DNA from: a virus
Virus record (IMG/VR): IMGVR_UViG_3300048127_000158
Span: 1 to 27,017 of that record
Direction: 5' to 3' (one strand)
Length of the DNA: 27,017 nucleotides
The position numbers and the translations under genes are program-made. Shown here piece by piece: positions 6,100-8,631 of this stretch. A model generated the notes under the pieces. The model searched no databases. It had not been told where the DNA came from and worked only from the letters and a program-made list of their open reading frames with translations. Within the stretch, counting starts at the first letter, position 1; each line of letters opens with the position of its first letter.

Positions 6100-6360
6100 T
6101 TAAATTTCATTTAATGCGTGATCTGTGATCTCATCATAATCATATCCCCACTCTCGGAGAAGTGCATAAAGGTTTTCGTAATAAAATTTTACTCCTTTAG
6201 TTTTGTCAGATTCGTGTATCCAAATTGGATTGTCACCATCTTCAGTGAATCGAATTAAAATTGATCGGTAATGTGTTGCATCACCTTTTAGTTTTACTTC
6301 TATCTCTCTGGTTTCGCAGTTAGAAATTACTTCAAAGTTGTTTTCTGTTAGTGTTGTCAT
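6100..6360 (-). CDS. 86-residue acidic hypothetical protein
   Basis: It begins MTTLTENNFEVISNCETREI and has a beta-strand N-terminus, then an aromatic helix (Y-Y-E-N-L-Y-A-L-L-R-E-W-G-Y-D-Y-D-E-I). Its start lies 19 nt downstream, in leftward reading, of the strong hairpin at 6380-6432, so its translation could be controlled by the structured element described there. Function unknown. Confidence 0.65.
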   Translation of the reverse strand: MTTLTENNFEVISNCETREIEVKLKGDATHYRSILIRFTEDGDNPIWIHESDKTKGVKFYYENLYALLREWGYDYDEITDHALNEI

Positions 6361-6379: not shown

Positions 6380-6540
6380 GTTTGGTTAAGAGGGATGAAA
6401 GGGAACGGCTCATCCCTCAGTTCAAACCAAACAAATTAATAAATGAAAAAAAGTATTTGTTCCCTATGTGGTACGCAGGAGGAGGAACATGACCCTCACT
6501 TCATCTCGAGATTCTATTTACCCGTCGGTAATCCTGCGTA
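6380..6540. ncRNA. candidate structured RNA with loop-loop pairing and a multi-helix junction
   Basis: This 161-nt stretch fills most of a gap between leftward genes and carries nested perfect complementarity. A two-part hairpin is formed by 6380-6387 with 6425-6432 (8 bp) and 6391-6398 with 6410-6417 (8 bp). Its apical loop, AGGGAAC at 6400-6406, is exactly complementary to GTTCCCT at 6459-6465, which would make a 7-bp pseudoknot. A 9-bp stem, 6472-6480 with 6532-6540, encloses two small hairpins (6482-6485 with 6494-6497; 6518-6522 with 6527-6531) and the palindrome ATCTCGAGAT at 6503-6512. The last small hairpin abuts the 9-bp stem, so they could stack. The strand is not settled: read leftward it would be an intercistronic or riboswitch-like element before the 86-residue gene. 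No known RNA family is recognised. Confidence 0.5.
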
Positions 6541-8048: not shown

Positions 8049-8631
8049 AATTAAAGTATTTGAATGAACGTAAATTTTGGACTAATTAAAGTCAATACAA
8101 TACTATTGAGAAAAAAAAATGTAATCGCAAAAAATGTGGAAATATAAATTTTTTTATGTCTTTTGTTTTATTTCTTTATTTATTTGGATTTGTCAATTTT
8201 ATTTATTATAGGCTGGATTTATTAGGGCTTACCAGGTTAAAGCATTTTTTCAAGGTTGGGACTATTTAAAGAGCTGGTTTAATTGGCTGGTAATGTTGGG
8301 CAGTTGTAATTTTTCCAGCTGGAGTTCTTTAGGGGGTGTTTGTTTAGGTGTTTGTAATCTTAAAAGGGGGGCTGGTCGCTGTCCCTGGATAACTTCCACA
8401 GCTTACCCGATTAAACGCCCCAAAGAGAGGCAAACGTCAAAAGTTTTTCGCCTGCTGTCGTTTTTTCGTTGGGGGGTGGTGTTTGTGGTTGGGTTTTCTG
8501 TAGGATGTCGGGCGTTGTATTATATATATAACCCAAATACTACACATTTCTAACGGTGGCATAAAAAGTGGACATTAACTATCTACTATTATAGGTGTAC
8601 AGTTATTTGTCACCTTTTCCCGCCACATCTT
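8049..8631. other. divergent non-coding control region, possible origin
   Basis: No credible gene is seen. The stretch at 8140-8210 is almost entirely A/T. The next 300 nt are strongly G/T-rich on the + strand, with five GCTGG words between 8212 and 8375 (8212, 8273, 8286, 8318, 8371), one in a CCAGCTGG palindrome. AACGCCC at 8414-8420 is a perfect inverted repeat of GGGCGTT at 8510-8516 and would close a domain of about 100 nt; an AT-rich ATATATATA run follows at 8521-8529. The region separates leftward from rightward transcription, a usual place for an origin or regulatory sites, but no known iteron or initiator box is identified. Confidence 0.4.
8098..8131 (-). promoter_or_regulatory. weak candidate promoter for the leftward block
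   Basis: Read leftward: TTTG (8131-8128), a 22-nt spacer, then TAGTATTG (8105-8098), which differs from TAnnTTTG at one position. It sits 50 nt before the first leftward start at 8048. The spacer is at the long end of the reported Bacteroidetes range. Confidence 0.35.

Follow-up and report, generated by a model that had tools for sequence, protein, structure and literature searches.

Positions 6380‒6540 of a viral sequence (IMG/VR record IMGVR_UViG_3300048127_000158, positions 1‒27,017; this whole stretch of 27,017 nt is hereafter the window) lie inside a leftward operon of small genes and can be folded by several perfect pairings. Do these 161 nt encode a structured RNA, and if so, of which kind? 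A preliminary description saw no clear leftward gene there, and indeed no leftward ORF of at least 60 aa exists between 6360 and 6549. The pairings that it listed are all present and can be read directly from the sequence:

6380‒6387 with 6425‒6432: GTTTGGTT with AACCAAAC, 8 bp
6390‒6398 with 6410‒6418: GAGGGATGA with TCATCCCTC, 9 bp
6400‒6406 (loop AGGGAAC) with 6459‒6465 (GTTCCCT), 7 bp
6472‒6480 with 6532‒6540: TACGCAGGA with TCCTGCGTA, 9 bp
6518‒6522 (TTACC) with 6527‒6531 (GGTAA), 5 bp around a tetraloop

The hairpin described as 8 + 8 bp exists with a second stem of 9 bp, one pair longer than claimed, and an extra helix (6482‒6485 with 6494‒6497) was absent from that description.

Covariation of the helices and the coding strand

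When the 161 nt were shuffled 4000 times with dinucleotides preserved, three or more distinct perfect helices of at least 8 bp within 70 nt never occurred, and two or more did so in 0.4% of the shuffles, in line with the earlier view that such pairings rarely arise by chance. The folding energy of the minus strand is only moderately unusual (z = -2.7), and the locus ranks about 11th among 599 tiles across the window. Since z-scores ranged only from -1.4 to -2.7, thermodynamic stability was rejected as proof of an RNA; what settles the RNA status is covariation in distant homologues, not folding energy.

To find distant homologues, viral contigs were scanned for 16 nt of the core, TAGAATCTCGAGATGA, and nothing else; the helices played no part in the selection. 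The scan yielded three further places (L028, L032 and L034), which together with the window clade make four independent lineages, the total for the covariation analysis. A gapped string, GGATTACC...GGTAAATAGAA, was rejected as a homologue finder, as beyond the window clade it returned only two chance matches in coding sequence. Chance matches of the same types of scan lay in coding or unrelated contexts, with model scores at noise level. When the six central core bases were relaxed, only chance matches appeared beyond the known members among the loci read; the core AUAGAAUCUCGAGAUGAA and a GACG tetraloop thus appear to be invariant.

Phage proteins are mostly about 30‒60% identical between these lineages, and the core is identical at 18 of 18 positions. 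Around it, each distant homologue forms the same three helices (P1, P2 and P3) from different sequence, as illustrated by the P1 strand pairs of the four lineages, ACGCAGGA/UCCUGCGU, ACGGGGGA/UCCUCCGU, ACAGGAGA/UCUCCUGU and AUGGAGGA/UCCUCCAU. In a hand alignment of the four, all 71 testable cells of P1‒P3 pair and 11 of the 18 pairs change on both sides; neither value was reached in any of 20,000 shuffles. An independent tool found both-side changes in five of the nine P1 pairs, matched by none of 500 shuffles, and the P1 covariation was best at slide 0, with slid versions nowhere near. Pairings broken without compensation, which the preliminary description had named as evidence against an RNA, were therefore not seen. 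G-U wobbles are pairs solely in the minus-strand reading, which fixes the strand and, together with the compensation in distant homologues, bears out the proposal of a structured RNA read leftward. We conclude that the minus strand of 6466‒6548 is a real conserved folded RNA, whose shape, rather than helix sequence, is kept across at least four distant lineages.

A small protein gene on the plus strand (MKKSICSLCGTQEEEHDPHFISRFYLPVGNPA), or chance structure, is an extremely improbable explanation of the same data. A 32-codon frame does exist and is partly open in L028 and L032, but in the close relative L003 it has no ATG and its Cys codon is changed to Tyr, so that this outcome favors RNA over the purifying selection on the frame that had been set against it. 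Moreover, Pfam finds nothing in the frame, and the changes are compensatory between helix sides, not synonymous. Mini-ORFs whose AUG lies in the core or the P3 loop were also rejected, since their peptides are not conserved.

Architecture of the conserved motif and its variable neighbor

The folded region had been described as one compact RNA. It divides instead into two units, a widespread domain 1 (6466‒6548) and a part restricted to the window clade (6380‒6465). The features of domain 1, all on the minus strand and listed from its 5' side, are as follows.

6466‒6548, minus: domain 1, conserved RNA motif; 83 positions, match to the covariance model
6541‒6546, minus: conserved 5' flank ACAAUC, shared by the window, L032 and L034, different in L028
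6532‒6540, minus: P1 5' strand UACGCAGGA, pairs with 6472‒6480; 9 bp kept in four lineages
6518‒6531, minus: P2 hairpin UUACC-GACG-GGUAA; three of five pairs covary, none is broken
6500‒6517, minus: core AUAGAAUCUCGAGAUGAA, 18 nt, identical in four lineages
6482‒6497, minus: P3 hairpin GAGG-GUCAUGUU-CCUC; three of four pairs covary
6472‒6480, minus: P1 3' strand UCCUGCGUA, partner of 6532‒6540

The GACG tetraloop of P2 (6523‒6526) is the same in all four lineages, and all of them keep an AUG in the P3 loop. The alignment thus shows domain 1 to be a four-armed element in which the covarying P1, P2 and P3 surround the invariant 18-nt core and the GACG loop. The core never varies, and for its interior we can only propose pairings: it may form a short arm, AUC-UCGA-GAU (6510‒6512 with 6503‒6505), with tandem G-A pairs on either side (6513‒6514 with 6501‒6502), and its 10-nt palindrome AUCUCGAGAU could pair with itself. 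A competing fold is possible for the L034 motif.

The second unit is seen in the window and its close relatives. Both flanking genes and the element are present in five other viral contigs, which with the window represent three sequence types. Over 188 nt, the differences among them spare the helices or preserve pairing.

6380‒6432, minus: domain 2 hairpin, 8 bp + 9 bp, window clade only; 72 of 72 cells pair
6459‒6465, minus: AGGGAAC, proposed pseudoknot partner of the loop GUUCCCU (6400‒6406), 7 bp

One pair of the domain 2 hairpin, A-U in the window, appears as G-U in L003 and as G-C in L008; a second changes from G-C to G-U among the close relatives. With three sequences and one fully compensated pair, the covariation of this hairpin is not significant. 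The 7-bp loop-loop pairing is invariant across the three variants and hence gives no covariation signal, so that the pseudoknot is a plausible candidate. In L034, a strong intrinsic terminator occupies the place of domain 2.

Genomic context of the motif

The motif is always found within the leftward operon of small genes. Its neighbors in the window are these:

6549‒6794, minus: upstream 81-aa gene; the motif match starts directly after its stop codon
6100‒6360, minus: downstream 86-aa gene, function unassigned; no Pfam or PHROG match

Across lineages the flanking genes show no homology. A 48-aa gene is preceded by the motif in G1 (the phage of L028) and followed by it in G2 (the phage of L032). 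In L034, the order is a Bacteroidetes-type promoter, a gene, the motif, an intrinsic terminator and the next promoter. The differing flanks, the order in L034, the swap of the 48-aa gene and the joint movement of the motif with the upstream gene in the window clade speak against a leader dedicated to a single downstream gene; they favor an RNA that is active alone or forms the 3' part of a message.

The resemblance to a riboswitch or leader of the gene starting at 6360, suggested in the preliminary description, is accordingly not favored. Such a leader, which might bind a ligand or a protein and use its variable 3' parts as expression platforms, would fit the covarying helices around an invariant, aptamer-like core followed by differing 3' parts (pseudoknotted hairpin or terminator), the start codons that follow the motif after about 40 nt in L028 and L032, and the presence of a terminator in L034. 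On the other hand, the motif does not lie in the 5' UTR of functionally related genes across lineages, as no family is common to the downstream genes; the gene at 6100‒6360 has an 85%-identical homologue in L006 and L007, where the element is absent and a small ORF takes its place; the next gene in L034 has a separate Bacteroidetes-type promoter; and the hairpin at 6380‒6432 is without a U tract and does not cover the start region. This evidence weakens the riboswitch reading, and we consider a leader function improbable.

A cis-acting element of the mRNA, which would stabilize, process or terminate the upstream message or modify the passing RNA polymerase and thereby tune the early operon, is the most serious alternative and a real possibility. 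It would account for the constant position inside the operon, for the fact that three of the four lineages have the motif shortly after a stop codon or in overlap with the end of the gene upstream of it, for the terminator adjoining it in L034, and for its moving together with the upstream 81-aa gene in the window clade (L008). However, the upstream genes are unrelated across lineages, an invariant 18-nt core is more than a simple stem would require, and nothing but a terminator follows the motif in L034. The put RNAs of lambdoid phages (HK022), described as two stem-loops near the early promoter, are likewise small structured RNAs within an early phage operon, and their antitermination in cis is one form that such an element could take; the motif differs from them in being a four-armed junction that lies inside the operon.

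Several other features were observed in these operons. Two near-identical promoters, TTTGGTAGT-TGN...TGTGTTATNTTTG, both matching the Bacteroidetes -33/-7 consensus, lie on either side of the gene-motif-terminator unit, at 8384 and 8915 of contig L159 (minus strand). In the L028 phage, the leftward operon that carries the motif also encodes, downstream of it, a sigma-factor-like protein (PHROG 351; contig L157, 5229‒5978, minus). Just upstream of the motif of the L032 phage, a 163-nt spacer (contig L158, 8581‒8743, minus) contains further hairpins, GAUGGU...ACCAUC and a long GUUGAGC...GCUUAAC, with no Rfam match and no relative among the fetched phages. In the window, 7102‒7673 (minus) comprises 572 nt without a leftward ORF of at least 60 aa. 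It is 96.6% identical to the phage of L003 over 560 nt, compared with about 93% in the surrounding region, and the approximately 270 nt closest to the next gene are almost unchanged. This segment may be a large noncoding RNA or a long regulatory region; an Rfam search of it gave nothing credible.

Distribution, comparison with known RNAs and possible function

The covariance model of domain 1 finds exactly one copy per contig in nine phage contigs, the window included, all of which are fragments, and no copy in the two relatives that lack the element (L006 and L007). The 18-nt core is absent from the GTDB bacterial genomes, where a looser core pattern gave only chance matches, mainly in one Acinetobacter coding gene. 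The motif phages have capsid, portal and terminase genes in common, and the L034 phage has a capsid protein that matches those of the Flavobacterium phages elemo, Maribacter phage Panino, and Cellulophaga phages phi38:1 and Calle. The carriers, mostly uncultured, are thus relatives of Flavobacterium and Cellulophaga podoviruses, and the Bacteroidetes-type promoters near the L034 motif are consistent with such hosts, Maribacter among them. In a model search, the motif was undetected in elemo, Panino, phi38:1, Calle and MW202828, which means that the wider group can do without it. The one match among ten isolate relatives, a weak one in Tenacibaculum phage JQ (15.7 bits), was rejected as an AT-rich, poorly paired alignment. 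DNA searches of named phages with the window and with the motifs of L028 and L034 gave short chance matches only, and none of the named phages has a relative of the flanking proteins. The window also encodes GroEL (530 aa) with an adjacent likely GroES (8941‒10802), a pair found in the L028 and L032 phages as well.

Rfam 15 gave no match at gathering level and nothing credible up to an E-value of 5, in the window or its relatives; the matches at permissive thresholds (a Xist exon, a snoRNA) were implausible. In agreement with the first impression that no known family fits, the structured RNA apparently belongs to an undescribed family. The four-armed layout is common to tRNA and the motif, but neither ARAGORN nor Rfam detects a tRNA in it, the alignment has no anticodon arm, T loop or CCA end, and the central arm differs, with 3 bp and a tetraloop; the window copy ends in GUACCA by chance, and the CCA is not kept in other lineages. 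A type III toxin-antitoxin RNA, recognized by tandem pseudoknot repeats preceding a ToxN-like gene, was rejected on the basis of the single copy per contig and of the downstream 86-aa protein, which matches neither Pfam nor PHROG. Invariant unpaired cores within small junction RNAs are typical of catalytic motifs, and the motif has this appearance; a self-cleaving ribozyme or other catalytic RNA of unknown fold is nevertheless very improbable, as the motif matches no ribozyme family in Rfam.

Two phage-associated groups offer partial parallels. The manA and wcaG motifs, found in marine metagenomes and cyanophages, are described as cis-regulatory domains linked to metabolic genes (PMC2864571). 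They are likewise compact conserved RNAs of marine phages, the ligand being unknown for both, whereas the present motif has no consistent downstream gene and no match to an Rfam model. GOLLD and ROOL are large ornate RNAs that form homo-oligomers (PMC12286853). The motif shares with them the phage association and the appearance of a standalone noncoding RNA, and its palindromic exposed core could in principle permit self-association; it is only about 80 nt long and unrelated in sequence and structure.

Since a fixed strand on a covarying scaffold commonly means a specific partner, we favor, with a nearly even chance of being right, a trans-acting small noncoding RNA located at the 3' end of early-operon messages or close to it. 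The flanks are independent across lineages, as such an RNA would allow, and a defined 3' end is clear only in L034. The motif would be kept, or cut out, as a compact RNA from the early-operon message, its 3' end being defined or protected by the pseudoknotted hairpin in the window clade or by the terminator in L034. The variable helices would then be a scaffold that displays the invariant core and the GACG loop to a phage or host protein or to another RNA, with self-pairing through AUCUCGAGAU as one option. An RNA target is not visible, since the GTDB genomes contain no complement of the 18-nt core and the phages no complement of it longer than 10 nt except the element itself; no protein was tied to the presence of the motif. 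More specifically, and rather unlikely in this full form, the motif may represent a class of small phage RNAs whose GACG loop and core bind a host or phage protein, or which dimerize through the palindrome, and which redirect the machinery of Flavobacteriia.

To our knowledge, phage-encoded RNAs in Flavobacteriia have hardly been studied. Little is known of RNA biology in the phages related to Flavobacterium, Cellulophaga and Maribacter podoviruses. The motif gives this group an RNA family supported by covariation and illustrates that rare structured RNAs of viral contigs can be missing from bacterial genomes and Rfam. Its invariant 18-nt core on a variable scaffold is a small, concrete and testable object. 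Since a pattern of this kind usually reflects a specific molecular partner, it could point to a host factor exploited by these phages.
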